From Ptychodera flava (Eukaryota; Hemichordata; Enteropneusta; Ptychoderidae): a stretch of 64,000 nt of DNA. Position numbers and translations under genes: made by a program. The notes under the pieces were generated by a model. It searched no databases. It worked only from the letters and a program-made list of their open reading frames with translations, and was not told the origin of the DNA. Where the stretch lies: the NCBI RefSeq assembly GCF_041260155.1, contig NC_091944.1:11969272-12033271 (forward strand), given 5' to 3'. Below are positions 17,012 to 60,628 of the stretch, one piece after another (position 1 is the first letter of the stretch; each line of letters starts with the position of its first letter).

Positions 17012-20000
17012 TTATCGGATACTAACATCTCCACCTTTTTTGTAATTTTCTGCTGCAGACAACAGGGCGAGAAGAACCCGCAGGATGTGAACGTCTTGTG
17101 CTGACGTTTCCTTGTTAATAGGCACGTTTTCCAGGTGATCCAAATTGGATACTCTGAAGATGCGCGAATTGTCTATTCCCATGGCGTCTGATATCTTTTC
17201 CACTTCTTCATCGACATCCTTTTTAGACTTTTTATCAATATGGGTGATTATTGCAAACACTGGAATTCCACGCCCTACGGGAATATCATTGTTAGAAAAT
17301 CAGGTACACCATGTTATAAAATTTTAGTCGACATTGATAGGGAACGAAGAATAGACCAGACAAAAATATAAACATAGAACCCCAATATGAAAATAGAAAA
17401 CAAACAAAACTTTGAGTTGGCGACAAGAAAGCTCGCTTGTTTTACTGACATCTAAAGAGTTACACGTTCATATCCTCACCTTTCTTCTGTGCAACCTCTA
17501 CAACTGTGACACCAAGTTGGTCCAGCTCCGTTGCTGTTGCCTTGTGTACAAAAGCAACAGCATGAACTACTCCAGCACTGAACTTCAAGCTTTTTACCCA
17601 AGCCTTTGGTGAATACCACGCCCAGTAGGTCAACTCTTCGTTTGCAGGATATTTGCCGTCAAAAATATCACTGATTACTTTGGATGACTTTCCCCTTCCT
17701 CCCTCCCTCTGGTATTTCTGGAGTGCACCACCAGGAACATCGATGCACTTGAAACTCTTTCCTTTGACATTAATTTTGTATGGAGTTAGGGCAGCTGTAC
17801 CAGTCGATACTCCTTTCCACGTGGAAGCCAAAGGCGTATGTAGATAAGACAATGCCTAAAGCAGACCAAATACACGCATGTTACCTATTATGTAAACTCA
17901 TACTGTTTAGTGTACCATTGTTTTTTCCCTATTTTCGTTGGCAATTTGTGTAGCTGAGAAGAAGATATTATTTTAATTTCAAAAACTGCTGCAAATAGAT
18001 TTCATTCAACATTACAGGTTGAGGTACCGTGACTTATAACAAATGTACATTATTGATTGAACACATAGTCTAAGTATGGGATGGAAATGCTGTCATGCTC
18101 CTTTCTGGTTCCATAGTTCATACCCTGTGTATGCAGACGGAAGTGCGGGTGTTACGTGCCTTTGGATGGTCAATGAAGTTTGCTGAGTAACGCAAAAGAG
18201 AAAACTTTTAAGACTTCTGTGTTTATTTTTCATATTCATGAAAACAAAAAATGAGATAAACTAAAACCTGTAACTGCAAAATGCGTCATGATATTTCACA
18301 TTTTCTTTTGTTGGTGTAGTGATGCAGTATTGCTTTAAAATGAATTTCATGTACGATGGCCGTGAAATACGACCTCAAATTATAAATAAGGTGGAGCTGC
18401 CTGTTACCAATACATTTTTTCAAAGCAATATTTCTCATCAAAGATACAAGAAAACCCCTTAATACTATATGTTTTCAAAAACCAGACACTCTAAAGTTTA
18501 GTATGGTAGCGGTAATTTACTCGAAGGATGAAGTGGCTGTATATTTTGGGTAAAAATATCAATTTTGGTATTAACGATGAAAATTATTTTAAGTCAAAAC
18601 CTTGATGCTATTTTCTGAAATGTAATATTTTACTTGAAAGAATAGTATGTGTAAAAACGACTATTTTATTTTGCATTACCTCTCCTCATTCTACAATGGC
18701 AAGGGTTGAAAGGCTGACACTAAAAAAAGTGATTAAAATCATGATTGGCAAAATTAAAATGCCTTTTATTCAAAATGCCAAACAAAACAGTAGTTATAGC
18801 ATTTACAGAACATGTGAAAATTTCAGAAAATTTGACGCAGCCAGTGTGGAGTTTAATTCTTTGGCACTTTTGAAATTGGGAGGAAAAACAAGGCAGAAAA
18901 GCGGGTGATTTGCATATATTTACATAATTTACGCTAAATGGTGAACTCGACAAATATTCTAATCTTGGGTTGACAAAGTAATTAAAATTGAATGAATATT
19001 TGCAAAATAGTTATTTTTTAGCAAAACACACTGTATTTGGTGCAGCGCCCCCTTAAATGTGTGTCATTTGAGTTACCCTTCCTTGACTTTTCCATTGCAG
19101 TGCGCCATATTACTCTCTAAACAAGACATTGGCAATGACATAGTGCACCCTTGTAATTGGTAATTTGTCACTGGACGTGACTAAAAATTGAAGACATTAT
19201 AATGCTCATGAAAAAAGAAATGCTGGTACCAAAGCCCTGTCTGTGAATAATGTCCATATGTGATTTTATTGCAAACAAGTAGACATTAGAAATAGTATAA
19301 ATGGCGCTGGTTTATGTCCTTGCACCGAGTTGCACAGAATTAGTATGTCATACCGTGGCTCGTAAAATTCTACTGATCTACAAAAAACCTGTCAAGACAT
19401 GTCTGAGAAATGGCTTTTGACGTAAAAAGTCAGAATGCTTGTTGGAAACAAAATGCTCCCATGTTCAGTGAAGAAGAAACTTCCTATAATTAGCCTTTAT
19501 TGACTGTTAAATCTTTGTATTATCAACATCTGCAGCAAGCGTAATCAGATTTAGTTCAGTTATTCATTATATAGATCTCTAGTTGCAAACATTGTTTCCC
19601 TGTTTAGCCAATCTGAACTGCCACCCTAACCACAAAAGGTCATTTAATAAGTAAATTATTATGCATCAACAGAATGTCGCTATACACTTTTACACTACTG
19701 AACGATCCACATCTGTACCACGCTTAGTCAAATTTGGCGCAGTACTTCTGGACATATCACACTAATTAGGACAGTTCATCAAATATGCAAATACGCAATT
19801 AATTGCCATCATACGACTAATTTCTTCACCTGCTACTACAACACTTTAAGATCAACTTCTGTACCAAGTTTCATCAAATCTGCTGCTGTATTTCTGGACA
19901 TAGCACAGGAATTGTTACACTTATGCAATTGTTGCAATATGCAAATGAGCAATAAATTGAAAATATGCTACTATGACTTTCTTTGCTATTGCAAGACTTT

Positions 20001-22675
20001 GAGATCAACATCTGTACCAAGTTTCAATAAATTTGTTGCAGTATTTCTTGACATATCACACTTATTATTAAAGTTCATTAAATATGCAAATGAATAATTC
20101 ATTGACATAATACTACTCAATTGCCTTACTGTAATTGTGTAGTTAATTGCCATATGCAATAGTGTATTATCCTGGTTTGAAAGGAATTGGCTTAGGCATA
20201 TCTGAGATATCTGCGTGGATGCATGGACGGACGCACGAACGGACGCACGGAGCCACAGTCCCCTAGACTTCGTCCGGGGTACTAATTAATCACTGAAGGA
20301 GTTCGGGTTGTTAGTTTAGTCGTTCTGGTGACCATTGGCAACGGACCGTGCTACACTCCTTTGGCCGACATGTTTCGTTAATGCCTCTTTTTAAATTCTA
20401 TGCATTGATTGGTCATCCAGATCGAGACATGTAATACGTCCAAAGCAACATGACTTGTAAAGGGACAAAGCACCATTCTCGACGCCCAAGCTCTACGTCC
20501 TCTTATATTGGATACGTTGCCATGGGTCTGATACTATGGTCACGAACATTCCCATCTTAAGTCGGGCACCCTCCCTACTGGACTAATTTACGATGCTTTT
20601 TTCAAAACAACTGCTGACGTAAAAATAATCATTAATAATACTGTTAATGAATTCCGTTTGACTTACTTGTATAATGGTATTAATTGAGGATGATTTGCCA
20701 TGTCCAGGTGCACCGATGAAAGCAATGTTCACATTGTTACACTTTTCCTTGATGTCATCTAGATAAACGAGAAATAACTTAAACTGAGAAACTACGGAAT
20801 AGCTTTTTAATGACTATTTCAAACGAAAATTGCAACATTCATGCTAAATAGATGAGCGAACGCAATTTAACGTTAAACTTAGAAGTCAGTAACATTACTT
20901 AATCACCAGAACATTGTTTTACTACTACGACCAAAGCGTGATGAGTTTTTAGGATAACCATATGTGGTTTAATAATAAAATATCGACGTGAAAATAAAGC
21001 TCGACTGTTTGAATTCAGCATGCCATACCAATTGTTATAATCCTCATTTGTCTTGTTTCTATTGAAAATTCGAATCTTCTCGGGTTAATATCGATGATCT
21101 TTTCAGTAGTCTCCAAAACCCGGGACATATCTCCTGGTTTGGAAGCGATTGTCTTCAAAGTGATTTCATTGCCTTTCTTCTTCACTTCCTTGACGTAATC
21201 ATCAGTAAGATTGAAATCAGCAATTTTCTCCTTTATTTTTTCAGCCAAATCAGAAACCTCAACTTCATCAGAACACTCGAATCGAATTGGGTGCCTCGTC
21301 GTCTTATGTTTAATGAACACTTCAACTCCTGTTGTATTATTTAATGCAATCATAGCAAGAGTTTTGATCAGAAAAATAATCGCATTCATACAAATCCATA
21401 ATCTAATGACATTAGGTCAGAATTCGTAAGACAATAGTTGTAAACATAGACACAAAACAGCACAGAATAGACAGTAAATAGACGGTACACAAACAAAGTC
21501 ATATTCATGAAATAAACTGTCGCATATTATAGTGACATAGGGCAAAAATCAACTGAGCCAACTGACAATTATACATTTCTTAAATACGATACGCGTGCTC
21601 GCACACAAATCGATCAGACAAGCACACGAGAAAATATGTAGAATTGTAGTGGTCGAGCCTCTGACTACTGACAGAGAAACGTTAGATTTGTACTTGACTT
21701 CCATCATGCGAGTTTGAGTCCGTTTTATGGAAGATGTGTTGAAATAAGGTTCTGTATTACATTTAAATTACAGTTTTAAAAAGTTTTTTCAAAGTTGTGG
21801 CTAGCTATCTAAGAAAACTCGGAATACCCAGGGTGCTAGCGATTAATGCAAAATATGGACTCTGTGTCCTCTCCGATGTATTGTGAAAATAATATCAGCT
21901 TTGCACGGCATGAAAATAGATATACCTGATAGTAATAACCAAAACCATCCCATGCATATTTTATAATATATATTTTGTACGCACCTGCATGATGTGATTT
22001 GATTTTGAAGGTGACATCTGAGCCTTCTAAGCTACGGGCAGTTGTATTTGGACTTAACTCCTCTGATTTATTTTCGTCAACTGTCTGCATCAATACCACT
22101 TCACTTCCATCTTGTTGCGCTCTTTCAGTGATCTTTGTGGCAAGTCTGAAGTCTGCTATATTTTTTTGTATGTCTATTGCTAAGTCAGAAACCAAAGTGC
22201 TCTCCCTGCATGATATTCTTATTGGATTGACTGATTTAAAATACTTGACAGAAATACTATAAGCTGTAAAAGAAAAGCAAACAGTTACGCTACTTGTTGT
22301 TTGATAGCAGCACAATTGCACATAACTTGGCGTATCTTACTTTATCGTTACACATTCATCTCGAAAATCAAGCTTAATAAGATTAGTTGTGCACTTACTG
22401 GGTTCTTGTTCCTCGATAAATTCAACCGTGTAATCCTTCTGTATGACAGATATCGGTTCAGAGAACTCAAGTTTCCGAGATTCTCCTCTATCATCTCTTA
22501 AGAAGAGGCGGATCTTGTTTATCTTGATGACGCCACTCTTCAGATCAAATAATTCAGCATTGTCTTGTACGGCCTTTGCTAGCTCATGGACGGTGTCAGT
22601 CTCTAGACACTGCAATGGTAGCAGATTTCCCTCAGATCGAGCGTGACGCACATCTATTTTCTTTCTTCCGCTCAT
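17012..22675 (-). CDS. GTPase gene A: three ubiquitin-like modules plus IFI44-like GTPase (six exons)
   Basis: Exons, read minus: 22,675-22,399; 22,263-21,985; 21,328-21,029; 20,758-20,667; 17,855-17,480; 17,274-17,012. All introns are GT...AG with phases 1,1,1,0,1, giving 528 residues. Exons 1-3 each encode one module of about 93-100 residues with a shared pattern: beta-strand, (H/P)xx, DT/V-S/H-D/E-LA helix, L/F-x-L, then strands ending in (V/F)-x-F. I read these as beta-grasp, ubiquitin-like folds (inference). The GTPase follows: G1 GAPGHGKSS (301-309), G3 DVPG (355-358), G4 THID (452-455), then VHILRVLLALLSAAENY. The order and C-terminal pattern match IFI44/IFI44L GTPases, which are interferon-induced in vertebrates. 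No signal peptide or membrane span is seen, so it is probably cytosolic. The 2.8-kb intron 4 carries a repeat insertion. The start is MSGRKKIDVRHAR, shared with genes B and C. Confidence 0.9.
19110..20281. repeat. repeat insertion in intron 4 of gene A with ~150-bp internal repeats
   Basis: Gene B's intron reads continuously from the TCTTGACCTTTCCATTG-type sequence to TTAATCACT, whereas gene A has about 1.2 kb between these points. Inside are about three imperfect copies of a unit of about 150 bp (CTGTACCA-type starts near 19,712, 19,859 and 20,013, each followed by TTTCTGGACATA-like and ATATGCAAAT-like sequence). It ends with GGACGGACGCAC-type short repeats and CCCTAGACTTCGTCCGGGG. Class unknown; non-autonomous. 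Confidence 0.6.
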
Positions 22676-22800
22676 AGCTGCAATGTCTGTGTTTCACCTT
22701 TAATGCAGTGTCGCAAAAATATAAAATTATCTAACCAGGGCTTGACAAAGTTCAGATTAACATAAGTTACAGGGTTGGTCAATATATTGCGCATGCTCAT
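22676..22800 (-). promoter_or_regulatory. conserved 5' region of gene A with NRF1-like site
   Basis: Immediately before the ATG, GGTGAAACACAGACATTGCA is conserved in all three genes. About 113 bp upstream of the ATG, TGCGCATGCTCA (plus-strand reading, 22,788-22,799) corresponds to TGCGCAAGCTTA in gene B and TACGCATGCGCA in gene C. The last is close to the NRF1 consensus GCGCATGCGC. No clear TATA box or interferon-response element was seen. Confidence 0.4.
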
Positions 22801-24055
22801 ACAAACGTCAGAATTAATAACTGATTGATATGGGGTGATTACAGACTTCATGGAGTAAAAACAAAAATTACAGGACTATCTATACGATAAAGAATGAACA
22901 ATCAACTTTGACTTTGAAAGACTGGTCAGCCAAAAAGGTTATTATCTTAATCACTGATCACTGAGTAAATGTAACTGCTGGTGTCTGCTTGTGGCGACAG
23001 ACAGTGGCATCGCAGTGTTTGATATACTTATTAACATTATTAGCTCTCCTTGTTCGATGGAATGTGGTCAGAAGTCATTGATTATTTACATACATCTGTT
23101 ACTTGAGCTGCACAAAAGTAGTTGAAAAAAAGGATCCTGCATATCGTCGCTTGTGTTTTTATCCGTAGAAACCATCTGGTTCAGAAGTTACTAAGTAGCG
23201 GCGTTATCTCAAAAAACTTCAGGGCTCTCCCTATGTCAATAATAAGTGGCCTCACATTACAGCCATGCAAGTGTTCACATTTAGTTAATCATTTGAAGCG
23301 GCCATATACATAATCACATGTCAACAGCTACCGATGGCGCACTCATATATTCTTATTTGATGTGCAGACTAAGTTGTCCAGGCAAACTGTTGTTTAATAT
23401 TGTGAAAGACAAGAACAAATTACTGAGGTAAGACCAAAATATACATTGTCCTCAGCGTAAAACCACAAGTTTGTCCGGTTCGTCTAGTATGCAGTCGCTT
23501 CTAGTGATTATTGAGCATTACAGTTACACTATGCGACTTCACTAAAGCCTATCAATGAATCTCAAACGAAGAAAAGCAATTGAAGACATGATGATTTCGA
23601 AAATTGTTCAGAGGACGAATTGTGTAACCTGTGTCCAGTATGAACACGCCGTACAGTATACTAACGTTTCCAACTTGGAAAAAAGGCTCAGCTCTCAGCT
23701 AACGTAACATGGCATCAGCAAATAGACAAAATTCCATGCATAGGTAGCACTTTTTCACTCAAAAGAGCAGCACACGATTAAAGCAACAAACAATATGAGT
23801 CAACTTCTTGTGACTGTGTGATTCAAACTCTCTCGCATTAACTCAACAGCTATTGGCTCATTTGAAATGCTTATTCACTACACTGGTATTTCTTGAACGG
23901 AGTGAAATGAACTGTTCAAAAGTATGATTTCCAAACACAGAGCATAACCAGTATGCACGCCATAGAATTGCCATTTTGGATACCAAGATCCCGATATAAT
24001 AGATTCTGTAATATAGTATACACCTGATAATATTATTTCTCAAGACATGTAATTA
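22801..24055. other. upstream flank of gene A, shared with B and C for about 0.8 kb
   Basis: No gene seen. Sequence to about 23,640 is homologous to the upstream flanks of gene B (47.2-48.18 kb) and gene C (60.8-61.5 kb), for instance GGATCCTGC, GTGGCCTCACA and ATCACATG followed by ACCGATGGCGCACTC. Beyond this no feature was recognised. Confidence 0.6.
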
Positions 24056-24255
24056 TTCATCGTACTTTTCTACCAAACTGAAATGCAGCACTAATGAATA
24101 CGTACAGGGTACGAGACGCCAAATGTAAAAAAAATAATTTACACAATCACACATTATTTCAGAGATAGAACAGATGGAAAATGTATACAGAGAGGAAATT
24201 GGAATAACATTCATACATCCATACAAACAAGCATACACCCAAACATACATCCAAA

Positions 24256-24365
24256 TATACATACATACATACATACATACATACATACATACATACATAC
24301 ATACATACATACATACATACATACATACATACATACATACATACATACATACATACATACATACA
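24256..24365. repeat. (ATAC)n microsatellite
   Basis: About 27 tandem copies of a tetranucleotide. The sequence just to its left (GCCAAATGTAAAAAAAA at about 24,118) is also found left of the larger ATAC array at 27.6 kb. Apparent Tyr-Val-Cys-Met or His-Thr-Tyr-Ile proteins across it are artefacts. Confidence 0.95.
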
Positions 24366-24372
24366 TCTACAT

Positions 24373-24620
24373 CTAGTCCGCGGTAGATCTACAATAGACT
24401 TTATTTAATTCGTCTGTAGATCAACTGCTTCATCTACTTTTGTGCATACTAATTAGGTCATAGGTCAGCTTATAGATTATATGTGGACATAGTGTTGACG
24501 ATGATGTAGACAAAAATTAGACGAAACAGTAGATCTTCAGCTTCATCTACTAGCTCATTAGTATGCACAAAAGGAGATGAGACACCTTGTAGATCTACAG
24601 TAGATCTACAGAAGATCACT
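24373..24620. repeat. fold-back element, GTAGATCTAC-rich
   Basis: TCATCTACTTTTGTGCATAC near 24,429 is the inverse of a sequence near 24,552-24,580 (GTATGCACAAAAGGAGATGA), matching about 24 of 27 positions. GTAGATCTACA palindromes lie at both outer ends. This looks like a small non-autonomous DNA transposon or a degenerate hairpin. Confidence 0.55.
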
Positions 24621-26568: not shown

Positions 26569-27589
26569 GAGGTTGAATGTAAATGTTTTCAGCTGTATGT
26601 CTCCAAGCGAGGCTAAGTGTAAATTTTCGACCTTTCGCAAAATGGAAGCTCTATGTACGTATGCATGTATGTGTGGTCACCAAAGGTGCAAGCTAGGACA
26701 AATAGAATGGTTATAAGTCTACTATTTACAGCAAGTTCTCCTTCATCATGTAAAATAATAGAGTAGAGCATGATTATCATAATGAGATTCATGATACAAG
26801 GTGTCAAATGAGGACCTCGTTGAAATCGAAGCTCGAACACTGATACCCAACCCGTTTAGGTTGCGTTTACAAAAATATGGTGGGGGGGGGGGGCTGGAGG
26901 AATTCAGTCGGATTCGAAAATTTTAGGGTTTATTTGTAGAGGGGGACTTGAAATTTTTTCGGTTCCCTTTTATGCTTTACATTTTCCATTCCAAGTTTTT
27001 GTAGGTGATTCAATGAAAATGAATACCATTATTATGTCATCAAGTTGTTGTAATGTTAGTAATCATTAACAAAATCTAGAACCATTTTGTCACATTTCAT
27101 GACTTTAATCTCTCAAAAAATGTAAACATATGCGATTTGTCATAAAAAACAAACGAGCCTAGTAACAGGGCAGAAGCTGCAACTGTTGATGATTTTTGCA
27201 ATATTTCTATGTTTACTAATATATCAACTACAGTGTCTTGCTATCTCCCAACAGCGTAATCAAACACACAATATTAGTTTTTCGACAAAGCCTGTACATA
27301 TAAATATGTATTAGGTGATAATTTAATCAGTGGCAGTCAGTTGTCTGTGATAACAATGCATGCTACACATACACAGGCTGTGATAGCAAACTGAATACTG
27401 GACAGTTCAACACACTGTAGGGAGTAGCACAAGAGCGCAGTTGTATAAACTGAACAAAAATATTGTCAAAGTTATTACAGCTACTGCCTACGGGCAGTGT
27501 CACTATCAGATACTGCCCTGCTATTGCACTGTCAGTGTCAGTGTCACTGCATACCTGTACAAGCCGCCAAATGTAAAAAAAAGTAATTA

Positions 27590-27714
27590 AAATACATACA
27601 TACAAACATACATACGTTCATACATACATCATACGTATATACGTACACACATAATTTCGCACAAACATGCATAAACACACACACAACACATACATACATA
27701 CATACATAAGTACA

Positions 27715-27748
<34 letters not shown>

Positions 27749-28238
27749 CATCCATACATAAATATATACATCCATCCATACATACATACATACCTACATA
27801 CATACATACATACATACATACATACATACATACATACATACATACATACATACATACATACGTACGTACGTACATGCATACATACATACATACATACATA
27901 CATACATACATACATACATACATACATACATACATACATACATACATACATACATACGTACGTACGTACGTACGTACGTACGTACATGCATACATACATA
28001 CATACATACATACATACATACATACATACATACATACATACATACATACATACATACATACATACATACATACATACATACATACATACATACATGCTTG
28101 CTCGCACACATGCAGGCGCTCGCGCACACACGCACGCACCCACACGCAACCACGAGCACCCACACCCCTCCCCCCACACACATACATACATACATACATA
28201 CATACATACATACATACATACATACATACATACATACA

Positions 28239-28268
<30 letters not shown>
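27590..28268. repeat. large ATAC/ACGT microsatellite array
   Basis: About 680 bp of (CATA)n with patches of (CGTA)n and a central CA/GC-rich interruption near 28,095-28,175. It is open in several frames on both strands, which is a property of a 4-bp repeat and not evidence of a gene. Confidence 0.95.
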
Positions 28269-28270
<2 letters not shown>

Positions 28271-29170
28271 ATGATAACATTTTCCAGTGTTATTCATTTA
28301 TTATTATTTATTTACTATTTATTTAGTTATTTATATATTTGAAATGTAATTGCCTGTGTCCTTTTTTGTTTTTTGTTTGTTTTAACCAATAGAAAAGAAT
28401 AAGATCAGTAAGCGTATACAGGAGGTTATACTCGATACCTCGCAAAATTGATCTAATCTACCGGCACCTGAGTACTCATTACCGTATGAAGATCTTGGGA
28501 GACCGTGTATACGCTCAAGTAATGATATACTTTTTATTTAAGACGCTACGTGTCTCAGTGACATAATATGAAGACTCTTAAACTTATACCTTTCATTTTA
28601 AGTCTACCACCTGTTTTGAGCTCATTTTAAAATTCATTGGGTAAAAATATTTTTCAATAGTTATTGATTTGTTGTATTTTTTCTATATATTGTTGTTTTT
28701 TAAATCATTGTAATATTCTATTTTCCAATGTACGATAAACGCAAAGATAGCGTTAATTTTGAAGTTCGAATGTCGGCAATATAGCATGATTTATTTCCGT
28801 AATACTGAAATTTTTAACATTGACTCTGTCTTCTTTATATTTGTTTTCGAAAGAAAATTGTTTAAAGTCTCCTCAAGGAATCTTGGGCATAAGTTTAAGG
28901 CTTTTAATTTCGAGGATCGAACGATGTTCAAATCAGTTCATGTGAAGGGCAACTTTTGTACAGAATCATATTAGGTATAAAGTGCATGTAATTCCTTCAT
29001 TCAACCAGCTACTTTTATCACCTTGTGTCGTGAAATTTTAATCATGTACTCCACCGCCTTATAACGTCCTTCAAATAAAATATGAACAGGCCATAGTCTA
29101 CCGAGACGACAATGAAACAAAAGGCATGCCACGTTGCTAGTCTGTCTTTCTATTTGTCTGTGCTTAAACA
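28269..29170. other. stretch without recognised gene
   Basis: A+T-rich sequence with no recognisable exon. A short imperfect inverted pair around GTATACGCT-like words lies at about 28,410 and 28,506. Nothing else was identified. Confidence 0.4.
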
Positions 29171-29177: not shown

Positions 29178-29560
29178 TCACAGACGGCATACAGAAAATG
29201 AAACACGATTATAAAATGGACTGTTGAAGTCAACAGGGGTAAAAACATTACATGAAGACCTGGGAAATAGACATGTTTTCAGTGTACGTTTAAATGAGTG
29301 AACTAAATGTGTAGAACTGGTATCAACAAGAAGGAAATACCAAATTTTTGGAGCAGCAAAAGAAAAAGCTCTGTCGTTGGCCGATGTTGTCACACGTGGC
29401 ATGGAGAAGAACATTTGAGAACTTGAACGAAGACCGCGGATTGGATTGTGCAGTGATATTAGTTCCATGATATAAGATGGGGACTGTCCGTTTAAAGTCT
29501 TCCAAGTTGATAGCAAAATTTTGTAGATGATACATTGCCTTAAACTGCATTAAGCAGTAA
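29178..29560 (-). mobile_element. 3' tail of a LINE reverse transcriptase ORF (CR1/L2-type)
   Basis: The minus-strand frame ends with the typical C-terminal tail of CR1/L2-like non-LTR retrotransposons: LNGQSPSYIMELISLHNP, then RGLRSSS, then RAFSFAAPKIW, then HSFKRTLKTCLF. In full elements the pattern is hxxLNGxxPxYLxxLL...LRSS...G.RAFSxxAPxLWNxLP...FKxxLKTxLF. The polymerase domain is absent, so this is a 5'-truncated copy. The start is slightly frame-shifted at about 29,520. Confidence 0.8.
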
Positions 29561-43274: not shown

Positions 43275-46200
43275 TCATTTGATTCTAACATGACCATCCT
43301 TTTTGTAATTTTCTGCCGCAGACAACAGTCTGAGGAGAACACGCTGGATGTAAACGTCTCCTGCTGAAGTATCATTGTTGCCGGCTACGTGTTCCTGGTG
43401 ATCTAAATTGGATACTCGGAAGATGCGCGAATTGTCTATTCCCATGATGGTTGATATATTCTCCACAGCTTCATTTACACCTTTTTCAGACTTTTGATCA
43501 ATATGAGTGACTATTGCAAACACTGGAATTCCACGCCCTACAGGAATATCAATTTTATAACATCAGGTATAACACAAGTCGACACGGATAGGGAACAAAG
43601 TATAAATTATACGAAAAACATTAACATATGACCCAACTATGAAAAAGAAAAAGCAACAAAACTTTGAGTTAGTGACCTGAAAGCCTAGTCGTTTAACTAG
43701 CATCATAATGAGTTACCTTTAGTCTGTGCGACTTCTATAACTGTGATACCAAGTTGTTCCAGTTCCGTAGCAGTCGCCATGTGTACGTAAGCTACAGCAT
43801 GAACTACTCCAGCACAGGGCTTTAAGATTTTTCCCCACGTCTTCGGTGAATACCAAGTCAAGTAGTCCAACTTTTCGTTTGCGGGATATTTGCCATCAAA
43901 GATATTACTGATCACCTTAGATGACTTGTGTTTTCCTCCCTCCTTTTCATATTTTTGAAGTGTACCACCAGGAACATCGATGCACGTAAAACACTTTCCC
44001 TGGACATCAATTTTGTATGTGGTTAAGGCTGATGTACCTGTCGATACTCCTTTCCAAGTTGAAGCCAAAGGTCTATGTAGACGAGACAATGCCTAAGCAG
44101 ACAAATGCATGCATGTCACCTGTTAGATTGACTCCTGTTGTTTTGTGCATCATTGTTTGTTTCAGTAAGCTTATTTGCATTAGCATTTTATGCAGCTGAG
44201 AAGAATATTATCAAAGATATTACTTAAATTTTTGATATAATATTAAAGTAATATACCGAAAAAATATATTTGATTTGAAATTACAGGATTAGGTACCCAC
44301 GACTTATAACAAATGTACATCATTGATTGAATACAGGGTCTAAGTATGGCATGCAAATGCTCTCATGCTACCTCTTGAGCTTCGTAGTCCGTAACTTGTG
44401 TATGCAGGCAAACGTGTGTTTACTACATGACTTTTGATGGCTAATGAAATATGCTAAGTGTTGCAAAGGAGCTAAATGTTAAGACTCTTGTGATTATCTT
44501 TTAAATTCATGAAAAGCAGAAATTAGATAAACTAAAATCTTGGACTGCAAAATAATATTTCAAATTCTGCAATTATTGGTGTAGCTAATAGTATAACTGT
44601 GAAATTGATTTCATGTGCTATAGCCGTGAAATACGAACTCCAGTTATTTTGACTTGTCTTTTGATTAACTCTTCTTGACCTTTCCATTGAAATAGTGAAC
44701 TACAGTATTATTTTGATTAATCACTCAAGGTGTTGGGTTCTTAGTTTAATTGTCGTGGTGATCATTGGCAACGGACCTGTGGAATACTCTTTTGACTGAC
44801 ATAGTTCCGCTGAGGCTTCTATTTTAATTCTTTGCATTGACTTGGCATCAAGATCGAAGCATCTAATAAATCTAAATGCAACATGGCTTCTACAGGGACT
44901 CAGCACCATACTCGACGCCCAAGCTCTTTGTCTTCTTGTATTGCACACGCTGCCATGGGTCTGATACTCTTTTTAGTATGGAGGTCTAAAACTCTAGATC
45001 ATTCCTATCTCAAGTCGAGTACCCTACCAACTGCACAACTATACAATGCCTTCTCCAAAGAAATTGTGACGTAAAAATAAGAATCAATAATACTGATAAT
45101 GAATTAAATTTGACTTACTGTTATTATGGTATTGATTGTCGATGATTTGCCATGTCCAGGCGCCCCAATAAAAGCAATGTTAACATCGTTACACTTTTCC
45201 CTGATGTCATCTGCAACAAAAGAAAAGACTTAAGCTGAGAAAGAAGAGAATAGCTCCTGTAATTGTAATGACAAGTTCAAACGAAATTTGCAACATTCAA
45301 GCTGAATAGATAATACAATATAAATTTAACTTTAATGTAAGTCAGTAACATTATGTCACAACTAGAACATCACTGCAGTGATTCAAGAACGATTAGTTTT
45401 CAGGGGATACATACACAGAATGGGAATTTGGTGTGATGATTGAATTTAAATGTGAGAACGACACTCGACTGCTTGATTTCAGCATACCCTACCAAGTATT
45501 ATTATTCTCATTTGTCTTGTTTCAATTGAAAATTCAAATCTTCTCGGGTCAATATCGATGACCTTTTCAGAAGTGTCCAAAACCCTGGACTTATCTCCTG
45601 GTTCTGTAGCGATGGTCTTTAGAATGATTTCATTTCCTGTCTTCTTCACATCCTCTGTGTCACGATCGGTAAGATTGAAATCAGCAATTTTCTCCTTTAT
45701 TTTAGTAGCCAAATCAGAGACCCTATCGTCTTCAGAGCACTGGAGTCGAATTGGATGCAACGTCGTACTGTGTTTTATAAACACAACTCCTGTTGTATTA
45801 TGTAATGCAATCATATAAAGAATTATGATCAGGACTTGATCCCACACATTTACAAAACTTGCATACATATATAATAGTGACAAAAAGCATAATCCCGAGC
45901 CTCATGTTGATTCCTAGAATGGATGATTCAAGGCCCACTTGTAATTAGTAATTTGAAAATATTATTGATCAGTGCTTAGGTAAAGGACACATTCTCGCAC
46001 AAATATATGTCAGACAAACACACAAGAAATTATGAAAAAATGTAGAGGTTGTACCTTTGACGCTTGACAGAGAAATGGTAGCTTTGTAATTATTCCCGTC
46101 ATGCGAATTTGTGTCCGTTTAGGTAAGGCATGTTGAAATACGTTTCTGTTAACTATTAATTTACAGTTTTAAAAAAGTTTTGAATTTTTCAAAATTGTGT

Positions 46201-47039
46201 TGAGCTACCGAAGACTCGGAATACCTTGGTTACCTGTGACTAATGCAAAACGCGGACTCTATCTCCTCTCCACTGTAGTTTGAAGACAATATAAACTTTG
46301 CACGGCATTAAAATAGAAATACGTCATACACTGTATAATAATTAAAACCATTCCAAATATACTTTTATTGAATGTATTTTGTACACACCTGTATCTAATT
46401 TGATTTTGAAGGCAACATCTGAGCCTTCCAAGCTACGGACAGTTGTATTTGGATTTAACTTTATTTCTTTTCCGTCATCTATCTGCATTAATACCACTTC
46501 ACTTCCATCTTGTTGCGCTCTTTCAGTGACCTCTGTGGCAAGTTTAAAGGCTGATATGTGTTCTTGTATGTATCTTGCTAAGTCGGAAACCAGATAGCTC
46601 TCTCTGTAGGGTATTGTGATTGGATTGACTTTGCTGATATACCTTACAGAAATACCATAGGCTGTAAAATAATCGAAAAGAGTTATGCTTCTTTCTATTT
46701 GTTAACACGTAGGCATACATAACTGTGTTACATTCATGAAGCCCCAGATTTTGCAGACTTACTGAGTTCTCGTTCCTCGTTAAATTCAACTATGTCATTT
46801 TTCTTTATGACAGATATCGGCTCACAGAACTCCAACTTCCGAGAATTTCCTTTGTCGTCTTTCAGAATCAGACAAATCGTGTTGATTTTGATATCGTCAC
46901 TCTTGAGGTCAAATAATTCAGCATTGTCTTTTACGGCTTGTGCCAACTCATGGATGGTGTCAGTCTCTGGACACTGCAATGGCAGGAGATTTCCCTTGAC
47001 TCGAGCATGACGCACATGTATTTTCTTCTTTCCGCTCAT
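43275..47039 (-). CDS. GTPase gene B: three ubiquitin-like modules plus IFI44-like GTPase (six exons)
   Basis: Exons, read minus: 47,039-46,763; 46,661-46,389; 45,789-45,493; 45,210-45,119; 44,092-43,717; 43,537-43,275. Phases 1,1,1,0,1, giving 525 residues. Same layout as gene A: three modules (starts MSGKKKIHVRHAR; YGISVRYISKVNPI; VVFIKHSTTLHPI), then GTPase with G1 GAPGHGKSST, G3 DVPG and G4 THID. All exon borders are intact and no stops lie inside exons, so the gene looks functional. Relative to gene A, exon 2 is two codons and exon 3 one codon shorter. The 5' region has the GGTGAAACGCAGACATTGCA block and TGCGCAAGCTTA (47,156-47,167) at about 117 bp. IFI44-like assignment is from motif order; the ubiquitin-like reading is inference. 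Confidence 0.9.
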
Positions 47040-48285: not shown

Positions 48286-50194
48286 GGGACTGGACATAAA
48301 TTACAGGGGGGTCGCCATTTTTAGCGCAAGCATTTTTGAAGGGTCATAAAATTTTGTGCAAGCCTATGGGGGACGGTCACCTTTTTCATGCATCAAAGCT
48401 GAAATTGCATTTGCACGTATTGAAGAATATGGGATACAGGAAAAAGAAAATATACCTCCTGGCATTTTCATTTTCTGCCATTTCCATTTTTGGCGTGCCC
48501 TTCAGGCGCAAGTTCAAGGGTATAATAAACAATGTATTGATGATCCAAGCAGCCACATTGATTTAGATTATCATAATTTCTTATCCAACTCCTCTATTGT
48601 GCATAACTGTCCCCTATAATGACTCTTTCATTAACGATTTGGGAGATCACTTATTTGATATCATTCTCCCATTGACAATACATTGGGTATAGGTCGGTGT
48701 CAAACGTTCATGTCGCTGTATGTACATTTTCATTTTGTGAGGACCTTGAAAGAATACAACTATTCAGAATAGTGCATAGTGTCATCAATAACAACTGGAA
48801 GCTTCAGGTCGAACAACTTTTGAATAACAATTTAGGATCAGATAACCTATTGAGTTATTTGTAGTTTCCTCGTAGCCTATATAATGTATAGTGAATCAAC
48901 ATTTCGGTGAAATTCCAAAATCAAATTTCTTGCACAACCATTGACTTGAAACCACTCTAGTCTAATCATGAACATTAAAACTAATAATTGGGTGTACATA
49001 AATTCACAGATTCACCTAGTTTTGTATGTATTGGAAAAAACATATTCATAGTTTCATCATAGACTGCCATGTACAATGAATCGACATTTCAGAGAAATTC
49101 CAAAATATAATTTCTTGCACAACCATTGACTTGAAACTACTCTAGTCTGATCATCAACAGTAATACCAATAATCGAGTATACATAAATGCACAGATTTTC
49201 CTATTTTTGTATTGGAAAAATATTATTCATAGGTTTTCATCATAGACTGCCATGTATAATGAATCAACATTTCGGTGAAATTCCAAAATCAGATTTCTTG
49301 CACACACATGGACTTGTAACCACTCTAGTCTAATCAAGAACATAAATATCAATAATCAAGCATACATAAATACACAGATTTGCCAAGTTTTGTATTTAAA
49401 AAAAATATTCATAGTTTCGTCTTAGACTACAATGTATAATGGATCAATATTTTATGCGAAATTCCAAAAACAAAGTTCTTGTACACAATTGCATGTGTTA
49501 CCACCCTCTTCTAATCAAGTACAATTATGCCAATTATTCAGGGTCCATATATGCACAAATAGTGCATATTTTTAATTGTGAAAACAAATTTTACAGTTTT
49601 GTTGTAGACTCCCATCTATAGTGGATCAACATTTTGAGCGAAATTCAAAAATCAAATATCTTGTTCACATGTGCACTTGTGAACAACCCATGCTAATCAA
49701 GTGTATTTATATCAGTTATTAAACATCTATAGATGAACAGATATGCTAGTTTTATATTGGAAAATACACGTTCATAGTTTTCTTATAGTCAACTACCATG
49801 TATAGTGAATCAACATTATCGATGAAATCTGAAAATTACATTTGTTGTACACGCATGCACTTTTTACCTGCCACTTCAAGCAAAGCACATTTACATGAAT
49901 TATCACACACATATGACTTGATATTTTTTGGACAAAACGTTATATCGGCCACATTTTGCCTTCCTTTTGGGAGGGGAACTTCAAGAGTATAGCAAGTCAG
50001 AGGGCGGACTTGAACACATTGCCGGTTTGTTTCGGAGTATTAAGTAGCAGGGGAGGGTGACTTTTTTTCATGCACGGATAAGGGGGAGGGTCACTAATTT
50101 TTGTGCATGAACTTTTGACGGGTCACTATTTTTGATGCAACGGTGTTTCGAAAAACACCGGCACACCCAACCCCTTTAATTTATGTCCAGTCCC
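48286..50194. mobile_element. Harbinger-like non-autonomous element with six 182-bp internal repeats
   Basis: Termini GGGACTGGACATAAATTA and its inverse TAATTTATGTCCAGTCCC; TTA at both flanks (48,283-48,285 and 50,195-50,197). The interior carries about six copies of a unit of about 182 bp, recognised by GAATCAACATTTCGGTGAAA-like sequence at about 48,893, 49,079, 49,260, 49,440, 49,622 and 49,806. No transposase. The short frames at 48,336-48,619 show no known domain. Confidence 0.8.
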
Positions 50195-52807: not shown

Positions 52808-52810
52808 TTA

Positions 52811-53930: not shown

Positions 53931-53934
53931 CAAC

Positions 53935-54175
53935 CAACACATCAAATGCACAGGAAAACGTATAAAATGCCAAGGACAATATATTGAATTCCCAGGACGA
54001 CATATCAAATGCCCAGCACAACATATTGAATGTCCAGCACAATGCATTAAATGCGCAGGACAATATATTGAATACCCAGCACACCTTATCAAATGCCCAG
54101 CATAATATATTGAATGCCCAGGGCAACATATCAAATCCATAGCACAGCATGATATTCGACCACTTAAGTCAGTCA
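53935..54175. repeat. inverted copy of the 20-bp minisatellite
   Basis: About eleven units reading AATATATTGAATGCCCAG and variants, the inverse of the array at 50.4-51.05 kb. It ends in GACCACTTAAGTCAGTCAT (about 54,158), the inverse of the sequence that starts the other array, so the two are related inverted duplicates about 3 kb apart. Confidence 0.9.
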
Positions 54176-54315
54176 TTGCTTGCCATACCATCCCCCTCTC
54201 AACATGACTATAGGTCCATCTACCAAAGGTAAATCTGGTCTCTTTAATTTCGCATGATCTGTACAGAGCCTACTTGGTTTAATAGTTAGAAAAGAGGAAA
54301 AAAGACTAAGTTTGT

Positions 54316-54316
<1 letters not shown>

Positions 54317-54359
<43 letters not shown>
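54317..54359. repeat. (TC)n microsatellite
   Basis: About 43 bp of CT dinucleotides. Confidence 0.95.
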
Positions 54360-54361
<2 letters not shown>

Positions 54362-56100
54362 AAAACATCAAAATTACAACAGTTTGACCTATGACACGTA
54401 AATTTAAGTACTTTAGTTAAATGCAGTTACTGTTTAAGTATCCTTATCATTCCATAGTATCATAGCCAGCTTGAATAGCATGACATTGTTTACTTTACAA
54501 CTAGTATGGTATAATATAGGTTCCCCAAAGTGGCATTTGATAAAAGAAAAGAATCACTATTGAGGCGGAAAAGTGTTTCCTAGTGTATAATTTACACGAC
54601 ATCGAATAAAATTAAAAATGATCAAGGTCGTCTGTAAATAATCATCCACTTTTGTGCGTTTGTTGATTGCCGCTGCACTCCAGAGAGCGATAAAATCCAG
54701 CACGTACCAGAGCTGTTTTTATCACAAATTGGTAAGACCGAGACAGGCACAGACCTTTGTCATCTATGTGAGGGGTTTTCAATGCCAATATGAAAATCAG
54801 CAGTTCAAAGGACAGTTGCACATAGAAGAAAAGAAATACGTTTCTACGAAACACAAATTATGTTTGCCTTCTGCTTTCATTTTATTATTCTTACAATAAT
54901 GTGGTGTTGATGAAGTATCACAGTCTTTGCAGCCAAAACTGAATGCAAAGGCGTTATTTTATTGTCTGCAGCTACTATGATATAGACTGTAATATAGTTG
55001 GAAAAAATTGCAAAGCTGAACAAAAATCTAGATTCCACGCCCACGCGACAATTAATTGCGCCTATGTAGTCATATGTTATGCTTGACTGTTTGACCAGAC
55101 CCATTGTAATAGAATCGTCAGTTTACAAAAAACGTCAATAAAACGAACATTCAGTTTGCATCCGATAATCTCTGTCGAGTTTCGTACATGCAATTTTGAC
55201 TAATCAATTATTCTAGAAGTTGGGATAAAGAAAGAAAACTGACCTTAAATAATGTTTAGAGGTATATTTATTTATTTAAGTCATCTACTGATGTATCCGT
55301 AAAGCACAATTTTATATGTTTTCCCGTATTTAATCAAATTTCGATCGTGATTATTCAGCAAATTTTACCAAGCGCACCAGACATAAATGAGAGAACTTTA
55401 GTTACACTTTTGTGACCCATAATGCATCTTGAAGTGCAAGTTCAAAGTATCTGGTACTTGCACTTTATTCTCTTTGCGTTTTAAAGCAACACTTCGGTGG
55501 CGTATTTGGTGCACAGATGAAAAGACTACTAGACGTATCGTTCATTTATATTGTAACCCTTGCTTTCACGAAAACTTCGAAGTTTAGAAAAAAGTATATA
55601 TCTCTGCCAATCAATCATTTTTCATAAGGTATTCCACAAACACCAAGTGCCGCGAACAGAAGTTCGAGACACTTGCTCTTGATTTTAATATCAACAAGGT
55701 ATTCTTTATGGAAAGCATTTATCGCAAAAAGGAAGTCACCTTTTAGATAATATTAGAAATAAATCTTAATTTTACTTAAATCAATGGTATCAAAACCAAA
55801 ACAAAACACTACTTTGCTTTGGGAAAGTTTGAGCAAAATTTTATGTCAATCTTTTTTCCGGTCGCAACCGTGGAACTCCTAAAATAACAGAGAATATCGC
55901 ATTTTAATGATGTCGGAAAATGTACATCTTTTAAAACTTCAGCTTTAAGATTTCTGCATTCAACGGCAGTAACACTCATTGCCCACAAAATCTTCAACTC
56001 TAAAGAAATATCTACACTGCCATGCCTGTACATCAATGCGGTAAAAATGATCAATCTGAATGAATTTTATATTGATTATAGGATTTTTGTTTTTTTGTTT
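54360..56100. other. 3' flank of gene C, unrelated to flanks of A and B
   Basis: No gene recognised. The sequence does not match the flanks of genes A and B except for the last few tens of bases before the stop exon, so a duplication boundary lies close to the 3' end of gene C. Confidence 0.5.
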
Positions 56101-56123
56101 GCTTGAATTTTAAAACATTGATT

Positions 56124-59100
56124 TCATTCGATGCTGACATGTCCATCTTGTCTGTAATTTTCTCCCGCAGACAACAATCCAAGGAGAACACGCTGGACGT
56201 AAACGTCTTCTTCTGAAGTACACCTTGTCTCAGCTACTTTTTGCTTGTGGTCGAAATTAGCAACTCGGAATATCCTTGCATCGTCAATTCCCATGGTGTG
56301 TGATATTGACTCCACTGCTTTGTCGACATCTTCTGCAGACATTTTATCAACATGCGTAATAATGGCAAACACAGGAATTCCACGCCCTATAAGAAGAAAA
56401 GTATGAGGAACATTAGTTTTTTACTCAGCTTTATGCAGTTCGTTTCTATCACATTATTTGCCAAGTCCACATATTAAGACTTATTGCACGTGACAAGTTA
56501 GCTATAAAAATTTTGAGTTGATCACAGCTGATCAAATATCAAAATCACAACATCATTAAGTTGTACAAGCACACTGATTCAGTGCAAATATTTACCTTTC
56601 CTTTGTGCAACCTCTATGACAGTGTTACCAAGTTTGTCCGGTTCTGCAGTACCCTTGTGTACATAAGCCACAGCATGAACTACTCCAGCACTGGACGTCA
56701 AGGTTTTTGCCCACGCCTTCGGTGAATACCACGCCCAGTAATCCAACCTTTCGTTTTCGGGATATTTGCCGTCAAATATATCAGCAATCACTTTAGATGA
56801 CCTGTCCTTTCCTCCCTCATTTTCACATTTTTTGAGTGCACTACCAGGAACATCGATACACGTGAAACTCTTTCCTTTGACATCAATTTTGTATGTAGTT
56901 AAGGCGGCTGTACCTGTCGCTGCTCCTTTCCACGTTGAAGCCAAAGGCGTGTGAAGACGAGACAATGCCTGAAGTAGACGAATTATATCAAATTAACTAA
57001 ATACGTTTTGTGCCATTGTTTCTTTCGGTATTTGCGCTGGTTACTCGTGCAGTTGTGAAGAAGTTACATAATGGTCGATAATGGAAGTGAAAAAAATAAA
57101 TTTATTTGGACGTTACAGGAAGGGGTAGCCACTTCTGATAACAAATTGACATTTATCAATAAAGAGTCTAAGGAATGCAGATGCCCTCATGCTACCCCCT
57201 GGACAACGTAGTTCATAACCCATGTATGCAGACAAAGGTACTTTTATTATAGTGTACAATTGATTGTCAATGAAGTCTGCAAGGTAGTGCAAAAGAGCAA
57301 AGATTCTTCTGTTTATTTTTTATATTCATAAAAGGCAGAAAATAAACAAGCAGCTTAAACTGTAAGATGCATGTGTGCTGATATTTCACATGTTTTATTT
57401 CAAATTTTGTTGATGTAGCCATGCAATATTCCTGAGAAATGGATTTCATCTCCCATGGCCGTAAAATACGAACTCCAATTATTTCGAATTTCGACATTTG
57501 ATTTACTTGACTTTTTATGGAAATAGTGAACTAAATTACTTTCCCAGTTATACACAAAAGGAGTACAGCGTAATAATCCTGGTAACTTTTGGCAACGGGA
57601 TTGTACAACACCAATCTTACCGACATATTCTGTTGACGCCACTATTTAAAGTCTGTGCATTGACTGGGCATCAAGATCATGGCATGTAAAATGACTTGTT
57701 AAGGGATAGAGCACCATGCACACCGCCCACGTTATCCAAACTGTCATAATAAGTACACTCCCATGGATTTGATTGAACTGGCAATCATTCCTATCGCAAG
57801 TTGGGTACCCTGCCCACTGTACTACTAAAGGGTGCGTTCTTCAAAAGAACTGGTGACGTAAAAATAAAAATCAATACTGATAATGAATGCAGTTTGGCTT
57901 ACTTTTATAATGGTATTGATTGTCGATGATTTACCGTGTCCAGGCGCTCCGATGAAAGCAATGTTCACATCGTCACACTTTTCTTTGATATCATCTGAAA
58001 ATAAAAGCGATAACCGAAATTGAGAAATGACAGAATACCTTCGGTGGTAACAATTTCAAACGAAATTTGCAAGTTCACGCTAAATATACACGACATCGAA
58101 TATTTAACTTAAAGATTAAGTCAACAACATCATTTGACATCGAAATTAGAAGATTAATAAGAAGACACATGAACGAATAGCATTTGATCAGGAGACCAAC
58201 ATTTAGAATTTGACAATGTTGTGAAATAATCAAAATTCCAATGAAAACGACGTGTTCACCTACCAAGTGTTATGATTCTCATTTGTTTTGTTTGTACTGA
58301 AAACTCGAATCTTCTCGGGTCGATATCGATGACCTTGTCAGAGGTGTTCAAAACCCGACACACGTCCCCTGGTTTGGAAGCGATTGTCATCAGTATGATT
58401 TCGTTGCCTTTCTTCTCCACTTCCTTGACGTCATCATCGGTAAGATTGAAGTCAGCAATTCTCTCCTTTATTTTCCCAGGCAAATCAGAGATCTTATCTT
58501 CTTCAGAACACTGGAATCGAATTGGGTGCACCGTCGTCCTGTGTTTTATGAATACTTCGATTCCTGTTGTATAAATCCAATGTAATGAATATAAACAAAT
58601 ATAATTGGAACTTGATTCCAAAACACTCACAGAATTGTTGCATAAAAAAGAGACAAAGAGTAAAAATAACTGAGCCTCATATCTATCTTTCAAGACCTAA
58701 TGTAATTTGAAATGACTTTTGCACAATGCATATTGCCGGGATACAACACGCGCACAATCAATCAGACCATATGATCAGACACACCCGAAATTATGTAGAA
58801 CTTGGGAGCAGGTCCTCTTACCCTTGACAAAGAAACCTTATGTTTGTCATGCAAGTTGATGTTATTTACGATAGGCGTATTGAAAAGTGTCCTGTATTAC
58901 AATTAACTGTACAGTGTTTTAAATTTTTAAAGGAGCGGTTAGCTACAGCCTACGTTGCTATTCACTGTACAGACTTGCCCGAGTCTGTTGCCTTTTGTCT
59001 GGTTTATGCGGTGATCACTTATAAGCCAAGCGACTGGTGCACCTCACGAACGCCCTCAACTAGTGTTACGAGCTTTTGTGGTAGTCTGTTGACATAATCG

Positions 59101-60628
59101 TACCAGGGTACAACGTATCTATGACAACCTAGTTGCAAAACCGCGCTTATCTAACAAAAAGCATTTACTAGTAGCCAAAGCAGTCTTTTTACCAAACTGC
59201 TGCAGCTTGATGAAATGCAGCACTGCATTGCATTGCATTTGTGGATATTTTCCCCGTAGCTTTCTCTCCAATGATACAATTATAATGTTAACGCTCTTGT
59301 TATAAGTGTGACATCAAAAAGTAACTATGGTGAAGAACTATAACTTCAGACGCGATCGATTTATCACAAGAAACGTTCTTTATTCGCAGCTGGTAGTGCT
59401 CAAAATTCGTTAAGTTGTCTATGCTCTGAGACTAGAAAGGGTGTGCAGAATACCAGTAAATTAGACCTTGCATGGACACAACACTCACAGTACACAACTC
59501 AGTGGTGAGTAGGTTTTCATCATAAACTCTCAGGTGGCTTCATGACCCCTGGGTATAGAGTATTTTAGCCCCGTCTCAGCCCCACTCGATCAAGTTTATA
59601 ATTTATCTAATGTGGCAAACAAGAGTACACAGTAGCCACTTTGAACTTCCTCAGAACGTAGACCACGAATTATGCAAGACGTGGACCCTTATGCCTTCCC
59701 CTCCGTCCTGCTGAGAAAAACAATAGAAACACTTTCAATGCACGAAAACATATGATGGTAAAAATCAAAACTATCTTAAACATATTTCATTAAATTTACT
59801 GTGTACATACCTGCATCCGGATCTGTCGGCGTGTTTAGTAATTTTTTGGATGATTTGATTTTGAAGGCAACATCTGAGCCTTCCAAGCTACGGACAGTCG
59901 TATTCGGATTTAACTCTGTTTCTTTTCCTTCAACTCTCTGCATTAATACCACTTCACTTCCAGCTTGTTGTGCCCTTTCAGTGACCTCTTCGGCAAGCCT
60001 GAAGGCTGATATGTTGTCTTGTATGTATCCTGCTAAGTCGGAAACCACATTTCTCTCTCTGTACGGTATTCTGATTGGATTTACCGATTTGATATACCTG
60101 ACAGGAATACCAAATGCTGTAAAAGAAAAGCACACAGTGAGGCGACTTGTTGTTCCATATAAGGCCCACGACCAGGCATCGTACAAAGATTCATTACACT
60201 GTTTGTTTACCCAATTCATATCACGGACACTTTGTACTAATGCTGTGGAAAATGATCCTACATAAATCTTATAACAATCGTGTTCTGTATGATTTCCCAA
60301 GTGATATTACCTTTCATGAAAATCAGTTTATTATTGAGTTTGTGAACTTACTGAGTTCTTGCTCCTCGTTAAATTCAACCGTGTAATTCTTCTGTATGAC
60401 AGATATGGGCTCAAAGAACTCTAGTTTCCGAGATTCTCCTTTATCATCTCTTAAGAAGAGGCGGATCTTGTTTATCCTGATGTCGTCACTCTTTAGGTCA
60501 AATAGTTCAGCGTTGTCTTTTACGGCTTGTGCCAGCTCATGGACGGTGTCACTCTCCAGACACTGCAATGGCAGGAGATTTCCCTCGACTCGAGCATGAC
60601 GAACATATATTTTCTTTTTTCCGCTCAT
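56124..60628 (-). CDS. GTPase gene C: three ubiquitin-like modules plus IFI44-like GTPase (six exons)
   Basis: Exons, read minus: 60,628-60,352; 60,116-59,811; 58,563-58,264; 57,994-57,903; 56,968-56,596; 56,386-56,124. Phases 1,1,1,0,1, giving 536 residues. The first module starts MSGKKKIYVRHAR. The second is longer than in A and B because about nine to eleven extra codons (SSKKLLNTPTDPD) precede its donor. The GTPase has G1 GAPGHGKSST, G3 DVPGS and G4 THVD; exon 5 is one codon shorter than in A and B. All exons are open and all borders GT/AG. Intron 2 is about twice as long as in A and B. Same IFI44-like assignment and same inferred cytosolic, possibly immune role. Confidence 0.9.

Follow-up and report, generated by a model that had tools for sequence, protein, structure and literature searches.

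The DNA analysed here, from the hemichordate Ptychodera flava, holds three animal genes that are intact, arose by tandem duplication, are under purifying selection and encode predicted GTP-binding proteins; their products appear to be of an unusual build, three ubiquitin-like modules being joined to a GTP-binding switch domain. The genes (A, B and C) lie on the minus strand of the window, the whole 64,000-nucleotide stretch, and span exactly the positions of the original prediction, 17012–60628, reaching from the final base of gene A's stop codon as far as the ATG that opens gene C. Gene A (22675–17012) has a spliced open frame of 528 amino acids, the length already proposed for it, with 525 for gene B (47039–43275) and 536 for gene C (60628–56124). 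Each comprises six exons, all 15 introns are of the GT-AG type, and the intron phases (1,1,1,0,1) are common to the three; the earlier observation of these genes is confirmed. A chance origin is excluded by three frames of 525–536 codons, all free of in-frame inner stops and spread over 15 introns, by 73–74% protein identity between gene pairs, and by pairwise dN/dS values below 1 (0.29–0.33 overall; 0.13–0.58 for the individual modules and the G domain, each below 1).

Working from the N-terminus, the first three exons encode one module each in every copy, a layout that had been foreseen. Exon 1 (277 bases in all three genes) carries module 1, at 22399–22675 in gene A, where it includes the ATG, at 46763–47039 in gene B and at 60352–60628 in gene C. 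Module 2 lies on exon 2 (273–306 bases; 21985–22263, 46389–46661 and 59811–60116, in the same gene order), and module 3 on exon 3 (297–300 bases; 21029–21328, 45493–45789 and 58264–58563). The G domain is then encoded by exons 4, 5 and 6: the P-loop by exon 4 (20667–20758, 45119–45210 and 57903–57994); the DVPG motif by exon 5 (17480–17855, 43717–44092 and 56596–56968), accompanied in gene A by a VHAVAFV stretch; and the G4-like motif, the C-terminal tail and the stop codon by exon 6 (17012–17274, 43275–43537 and 56124–56386), with RVSN also present in gene A. All of these positions come from the gene models; module homology adds to the case for exons 2 and 3, and AF2 and Foldseek to that for gene A exon 1.

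The motifs listed for the GTPase in the original prediction are present in all three genes: GAPGHGKSS (G1), DVPG (G3) and a G4-like TH(I/V)D, read as THID in A and B and THVD in C, matching the patterns GxxxxGK[ST], DxxG and [NT][KH]xD, respectively. The tail motif VxILRxLLxLLSAAENY is literal in gene A alone, genes B and C carrying the variants VYIQRVLLRLLSAAENY and VYVQRVLLGLLSAGENY. Pfam MMR_HSR1 matches the G domain of each gene, above its cut-off for gene A (28.4–29.6 bits; cut-off 21.9), and exons 4–6 can be assigned securely to a P-loop, TRAFAC-type GTPase domain. Two further candidates were set aside. FtsK/EccC ATPases headed the lists when the PDB was searched with the product or the G-domain profile (E 0.056–0.31), and at the P-loop Pfam FtsK_SpoIIIE narrowly missed its cut-off (23.1 against 24 bits); we read both as a resemblance of the P-loop itself, because DVPG and THxD come after it. 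Likewise, the LeoBC model of PADLOC is matched by the P-loop half of every G domain (best E 9.6e-6; for gene A, E 6.6e-4 at residues 5–73, with other PADLOC rows weaker), which we attribute to shared GTPase likeness. No prokaryotic or viral relative was found in viral_contigs or genome_contigs with two narrow peptide patterns each, nor among 50,697 phage records.

The nearest named relative of the G domain is probably IFI44/IFI44L. Human IFI44 and IFI44L, taken in unverified sequence versions for this and all other comparisons, align over positions 7–237 of the G-domain profile, from P-loop to tail (hhalign P 2.4e-8 and 3.7e-7; 2.6e-9 as a pair), and of seven GTPases compared they alone do so over the whole length; the controls IIGP1, GIMAP2, SEPT2 and HRAS match just 21–23 columns at the P-loop, and bacterial EngB 139 columns, stopping before the tail. 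This difference in extent speaks against the strongest alternative, a G domain from some other or unnamed family of TRAFAC/septin-like GTPases that resembles IFI44 only generically; on that view the proteins would lack a particular link to interferon-type immunity and could act in trafficking or in organelles. Even so, we would give that alternative a little less than an even chance: MMR_HSR1 and YsxC/EngB are the top Pfam and NCBIfam rows, EngB equals IFI44L in bit score against the profile (13.7 and 13.3), LeoBC recognises the domain in every copy, and the IFI44 queries are unverified sequences. Furthermore, a reciprocal profile of these IFI44 sequences scores the genes at shuffle level (6.3–7.9 bits; shuffle maximum 6.8, GIMAP2 10.7), and tblastn with the same sequences against the window left genes A–C unmatched at E up to 10. 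The proposed IFI44-type G domain thus has in IFI44/IFI44L its best whole-length match among the seven, on unverified letters, but fails in the reciprocal profile and tblastn comparisons.

Continuing with IFI44/IFI44L as the probable relative, the sequences used share with genes A–C the P-loop, the C-terminal tail and alignment along the entire G domain; THxD is found in IFI44, whilst IFI44L reads TKVD, and the G3 motif differs (DVPG here; DSLG/DTMG in IFI44/IFI44L). The principal difference lies at the N-terminus, where IFI44 has a TLDc domain and genes A–C carry the three ubiquitin-like modules. A search for Pfam TLD in the 528-residue gene A product and in each of the nine modules (E up to 10), as well as in 7 of the 50 ORFs lying upstream (E up to 0.1), gave no row, in agreement with the earlier suggestion that TLDc has been replaced; as a control, the same model scored the IFI44 sequence used above its cut-off (35.2 bits) and that of IFI44L below it (17.9 bits). 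EngB/YsxC resembles the domain as its best NCBIfam match, but falls far below the equivalog cut-off (28.7 against 124.45 bits, gene A) and has no modules. IRG (IIGP1) and GIMAP proteins are also P-loop GTPases of immune families, but their match extends no further than the P-loop, over 21 and 23 columns, with Pfam IIGP and AIG1 below cut-off for gene A (12.5 and 13.3 bits; cut-offs 24 and 27) and giving best E values of 0.018 and 0.0015 in genes B and C; we know of no ubiquitin-like array in either family.

Sequence comparison shows clear homology between modules 2 and 3 (z 13.9–15.1 across genes A–C, a score that none of 500 shuffles reached in any gene), and by the same measure module 1 is homologous to module 3 in genes B and C (z 5.7 and 7.4) and weakly so in gene A (z 1.7; 34 of 500 shuffles as high). 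Structure models were made on two single exons. That of gene A module 1, of moderate confidence (mean pLDDT 61.4, pTM 0.52), has the order strand-strand-helix-strand...strand, and its best Foldseek match has E 6.5e-4 and probability 1.00; entries whose titles name ubiquitin, one of its variants or some UBL protein account for 41 of the best 50 of 1321 matches (E up to 10). A beta-grasp fold for module 1 is thereby supported by the model, and we infer that modules 2 and 3 share it, because of the sequence homology between modules. The model of gene C module 3 was itself poor (pLDDT 48.6), with nothing below E 1 in Foldseek, although its top row was again an N-terminal ubiquitin fragment (E 1.2). 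The triple beta-grasp array of the original prediction is therefore supported for module 1 through its fold model and would extend to modules 2 and 3 by way of homology, the module-3 model being too poor to decide.

Profile searches were expected to place the modules among ubiquitin-like families. Against the PDB, the module profile put polyubiquitin first, weakly and in a score summed over repeats (E 0.008), and 6 of 10 rows were ubiquitin or ubiquitin-derived, the others being non-ubiquitin and led by Lmo2241 (E 0.014). None of the nine modules, each searched singly at E up to 10, matched a Pfam ubiquitin-like family; their two sub-threshold rows were NTP_transf_7 (E 0.021) and DUF7283 (E 0.23). 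In favour of such a fold, a weak RA-domain row (RA_3, E 0.12), also below cut-off, lies on gene A module 3. For the modules, phmmer against the PDB gave no named family. Nor was the module profile significantly similar to the letters of ubiquitin (score 18.1; 1 of 60 shuffles as high), NEDD8 (top alignment just 3 columns) or CRAF-RBD (20 of 60 shuffles as high). These results, the absence of any Pfam family above cut-off, the non-significant test against ubiquitin and the poor module-3 model, are what exons 1–3 would give if they encoded repeats of a different small alpha-beta fold specific to the lineage; set against the predominance of ubiquitin-type entries among the module-1 structural matches, and the ubiquitin fragment that heads even the module-3 search, we consider such a fold unlikely. 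As for the type of ubiquitin-like domain, the modules do not look like conjugated modifiers, and would rather be built in, because the array lacks Gly-Gly: none occurs in the first 285 residues of any of the three products, or in the last 9 residues of the gene C array.

That exons 1–3 are spliced to GTPase exons 4–6 is strongly supported, the fusion originally proposed being backed at the level of sequence by identical phases in three copies. Separate transcripts for the two halves, with the fusion an artefact of joining neighbours, are very improbable: exon 4 requires a phase-1 upstream exon, which exon 3 supplies 269–282 bases away in all three copies, and no copy has an ATG within the 25 residues before the P-loop.

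Between genes A and B, and not listed in the original prediction, lies an orphan, divergent module-1-like stretch on the minus strand (34674–34504), which begins MSG before an in-frame stop and is probably the relic of a fourth gene copy. It matches the full profile at E 8.3e-6 and the module profile at 2.9e-5, and by tblastn at just 0.14–0.44; no modules 2–3 or G exons were found near it by profile, and Pfam gave no match to it. The window also contains a Polinton-like element and microsatellites. Although this relic and these elements might suggest that the gene copies themselves are decaying or borne by mobile elements, without function, the unbroken frames and dN/dS well below 1 in every module and G domain leave that reading very little room.

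The products of genes A–C may have a role in immunity. In oyster and cnidarians, genes annotated as IFI44 are responsive to virus or dsRNA (PMC4111845, PMC13319465), and OASL, by means of its two ubiquitin-like domains, can replace K63-polyubiquitin on RIG-I (PMC4446440); an IFI44L review (PMC11682996) gave no useful passage on GTP or structure. OASL, which belongs to an immune family that binds nucleotides, is also a parallel in build, carrying ubiquitin-like domains in tandem as part of the protein (PMC4446440), but there two such domains lie C-terminal to an OAS-like domain, whereas here three modules lie N-terminal to a GTPase. The idea of immune-type induction at the promoter was dropped: none of the copies has an ISRE-like or kB-like site within its 600 upstream bases, and GAAANNGAAA, found 12 times in the whole window (5.4 expected), is absent from these upstream regions. 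A ubiquitin-like/IFI44 fusion is unnamed in the titles and abstract openings among the literature matches listed; since eukaryotic protein databases lay outside the scope of the search, this does not establish a lack of earlier description.

Putting these elements together, we see about an even chance that the three ubiquitin-like modules, in tandem, and the TRAFAC G domain, probably near IFI44, make up a scaffold that is switched by GTP and perhaps acts in immunity. The G domain would serve as a switch or an oligomeriser under nucleotide control, and the three modules, in a fixed linear array, would dock partners that ordinarily recognise ubiquitin chains, much as those of OASL can. A more specific version is considerably more doubtful: an invertebrate IFI44-type immune GTPase whose TLDc has been swapped for a fixed tri-ubiquitin-like chain, which, gated by GTP, would mimic linear or K63 polyubiquitin and set off innate signalling in parallel to OASL, amplified in tandem and with its second module evolving fastest. 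If the overall reading is right, it would be a second, independent case of a ubiquitin-like chain fixed onto an immune nucleotide-binding protein; it would mean that the IFI44-type G domain can exchange its N-terminal partner, and the ubiquitin-like array would be a guide to the partners through which the family signals in animals that have no interferon.

Genes A, B and C, the three copies in which exons for ubiquitin-like modules precede those for a GTPase, were modelled by hand on the minus strand, their exons being joined by script; each has six exons, with gene A (22675-17012) encoding 528 aa, gene B (47039-43275) 525 aa and gene C (60628-56124) 536 aa. All 15 introns have GT-AG boundaries, and the same series of intron phases (1,1,1,0,1) recurs in each copy. 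The original prediction that exons 1-3 (modules 1-3) belong to the same gene as the GTPase exons (exons 4-6, the G domain) is supported by these phases and by the placing of start codons: exon 4 requires a phase-1 donor, which exon 3 provides 269-282 bases away in all three copies; the ATG of exon 1 is conserved, its open frame opening just 18 bases upstream in each gene; and no ATG is seen in the 25 residues ahead of the exon 4 P-loop in any of them. From the gene structure, we strongly infer that the two sets of exons are joined in one product.

The three products are 73-74% identical in pairwise comparison. Some introns can be aligned at 66-76% across hundreds of bases, others not at all, and alignment of the upstream 600 bases shows identical blocks that are most dense close to the ATG; this alignment of upstream and some intronic sequence suggests that the copies arose by duplication of whole genes. 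Between copies, dN/dS (Nei-Gojobori) is 0.29-0.33 for the whole frame, 0.13-0.22 for module 1, 0.29-0.40 for module 3 and 0.29-0.31 for the G domain, with module 2 highest among the parts measured (0.43-0.58). The C-terminal end of module 2 also differs in length among copies (21985-22263, 46389-46661 and 59811-60116). Between genes A and B, a module-1-like stretch on the minus strand (34674-34504), in a frame starting MSG and then running to an in-frame stop, matches the family profile over its first 57 positions (E 8.3e-6) as well as the module profile (E 2.9e-5), single-sequence tblastn giving just E 0.14-0.44. When window ORFs of at least 18 aa were scanned with profiles, neither modules 2-3 nor G exons turned up nearby; we take the stretch as the probable remnant of a fourth copy of the gene, its divergence suggesting that the family is old.

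The array was originally predicted to comprise three beta-grasp folds. An AlphaFold model of module 1 from gene A, based on an alignment of nine sequences from the window (mean pLDDT 61.4, pTM 0.52), has strands at residues 4-11, 19-24, 52-58 and 83-88, and a helix at 29-38. In a Foldseek search of the PDB, 1321 entries matched with E no higher than 10 (four at E 0.001 or better); among the best 50 of these, with query TM-scores mostly of 0.5-0.6, 41 are titled ubiquitin, ubiquitin variant or UBL protein, the other nine being three tubulin-cofactor chains, four superantigen-type chains—which also contain a beta-grasp domain—and two others. Module 1 is thus likely to be ubiquitin-like. For modules 2 and 3 the same assignment follows only by homology: modules 2 and 3 resemble each other strongly (z 13.9-15.1 over shuffles; 0/500 as high in each gene), module 1 resembling module 3 at z 1.7, 5.7 and 7.4, and module 2 at z 3.5, 2.1 and 2.5, in A, B and C respectively. 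The model of gene C module 3 is poor (pLDDT 48.6) and has no PDB match below E 1 in Foldseek, many of its match rows being 34-36-residue N-terminal pieces of ubiquitin. No Pfam family reaches its cut-off on any of the nine modules (just NTP_transf_7, E 0.021, and DUF7283, E 0.23, appear at E up to 10), and a scan of the whole 528-aa product of gene A places RA_3, a Ras-association-type family, on module 3 below cut-off (E 0.12). Tetra-ubiquitin and polyubiquitin are the top PDB matches of the nine-module profile (E 0.008); at 3.8 bits per ubiquitin repeat, and with an unrelated protein next at E 0.014, we read this as a hint. Direct comparison of the module profile with the ubiquitin sequence gave no significance.

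GAPGHGKSS, DVPG and TH(I/V)D are found in all three genes, and all three G domains match MMR_HSR1 (29.6 bits against a cut-off of 21.9 for gene A); in gene A, Septin, AIG1 and IIGP fall below their Pfam cut-offs, and the best NCBIfam rows, YsxC/EngB and the small-GTP domain, fall below theirs. The IFI44 and IFI44L queries were provisional versions of the human sequences, not drawn from a database record; at 444 and 452 aa they have the lengths of the human proteins. With hhalign, the three-gene profile aligns with both end to end, from position 7-9 through 234-237 (P 2.4e-8 for IFI44 and 3.7e-7 for IFI44L). Of the controls, EngB gives an alignment of 139 columns (P 2e-7), with the bit score of the provisional IFI44L, and four others give 21-23 columns: SEPT2, HRAS and, with sequences verified against PDB chains, GIMAP2 and IIGP1 (P 6.5e-6). 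Against 1000 shuffles per protein, 475-835 of which scored, the provisional IFI44L reaches 13.3 bits (best shuffle 2.5) and the provisional IFI44 8.7 (best shuffle 6.5). A reciprocal profile of the two provisional IFI44 domains gives 7.9, 7.0 and 6.3 bits for B, C and A, level with its top shuffle (6.8; 1096 scored of 1500), and 10.7 for GIMAP2 via the P-loop end; tblastn of the provisional sequences against the window returned five rows elsewhere (E 2.4-8.2) and none in A, B or C. The originally predicted kinship of the G domain with IFI44 is therefore slightly favoured, though unproven. A TLD domain is recognised by Pfam in the provisional IFI44 sequence; scans of gene A's product, of the nine modules and of 7 among 50 ORFs upstream gave no TLDc. 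The putative TLDc of IFI44 is itself described as just 15% identical to other members (PMC5614904).

The window resembles animal DNA, with spliced genes, 34-42% GC, microsatellites and, in 1-10000, what we take to be a Polinton/Maverick-like element. On the minus strand this element has ORFs that match an integrase core (rve; 3386-4087, Pfam E 6e-14) and a Pox_A32 packaging ATPase (4394-5017, E 3.6e-11), whereas Pfam gave nothing for six other ORFs there at a limit of E 0.01. A search of 1-12000 for inverted repeats of at least 60 bases was negative, so the element may have its ends beyond the window. Long ACAT/ATGT-type microsatellites (24053-24388 and 27544-28342) generate spurious long ORFs on both strands. 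A minus-strand ORF at 29178-29549, without a match in a Pfam scan, looks like the C-terminus of a reverse transcriptase from a non-LTR retrotransposon.

None of the papers listed in searches of the open-access literature describes a ubiquitin-like array joined to an IFI44-type GTPase, which is weak evidence of novelty; other sources may carry A, B and C already under an IFI44-like or uncharacterised label. Promoter motifs upstream of the genes lend no support to an immune setting. GAAANNGAAA is absent from the upstream 600 bases of all three. It occurs 12 times in the window against 5.4 expected (0/100 shuffles reach 12), including a pair at 48440 and 48466, ~1.4 kb above gene B. An immune setting is suggested by analogy with IFI44-annotated genes, which are reported as upregulated in oyster after herpesvirus (PMC4111845; named also among the upregulated transcripts of PMC8917759). 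In Nematostella such genes are reported to rise in RLRb-high cells, and they are among those common to the antiviral responses of Nematostella and Stylophora (PMC13319465). Our working parallel is OASL, with two built-in ubiquitin-like domains described as able to replace K63-linked polyubiquitin and bind the RIG-I CARDs (PMC4446440). The array of the A, B and C products lacks Gly-Gly, and so would probably be read in place rather than conjugated; most likely, these proteins would act as a GTP-dependent switch coupled to a fixed array of ubiquitin-like modules.
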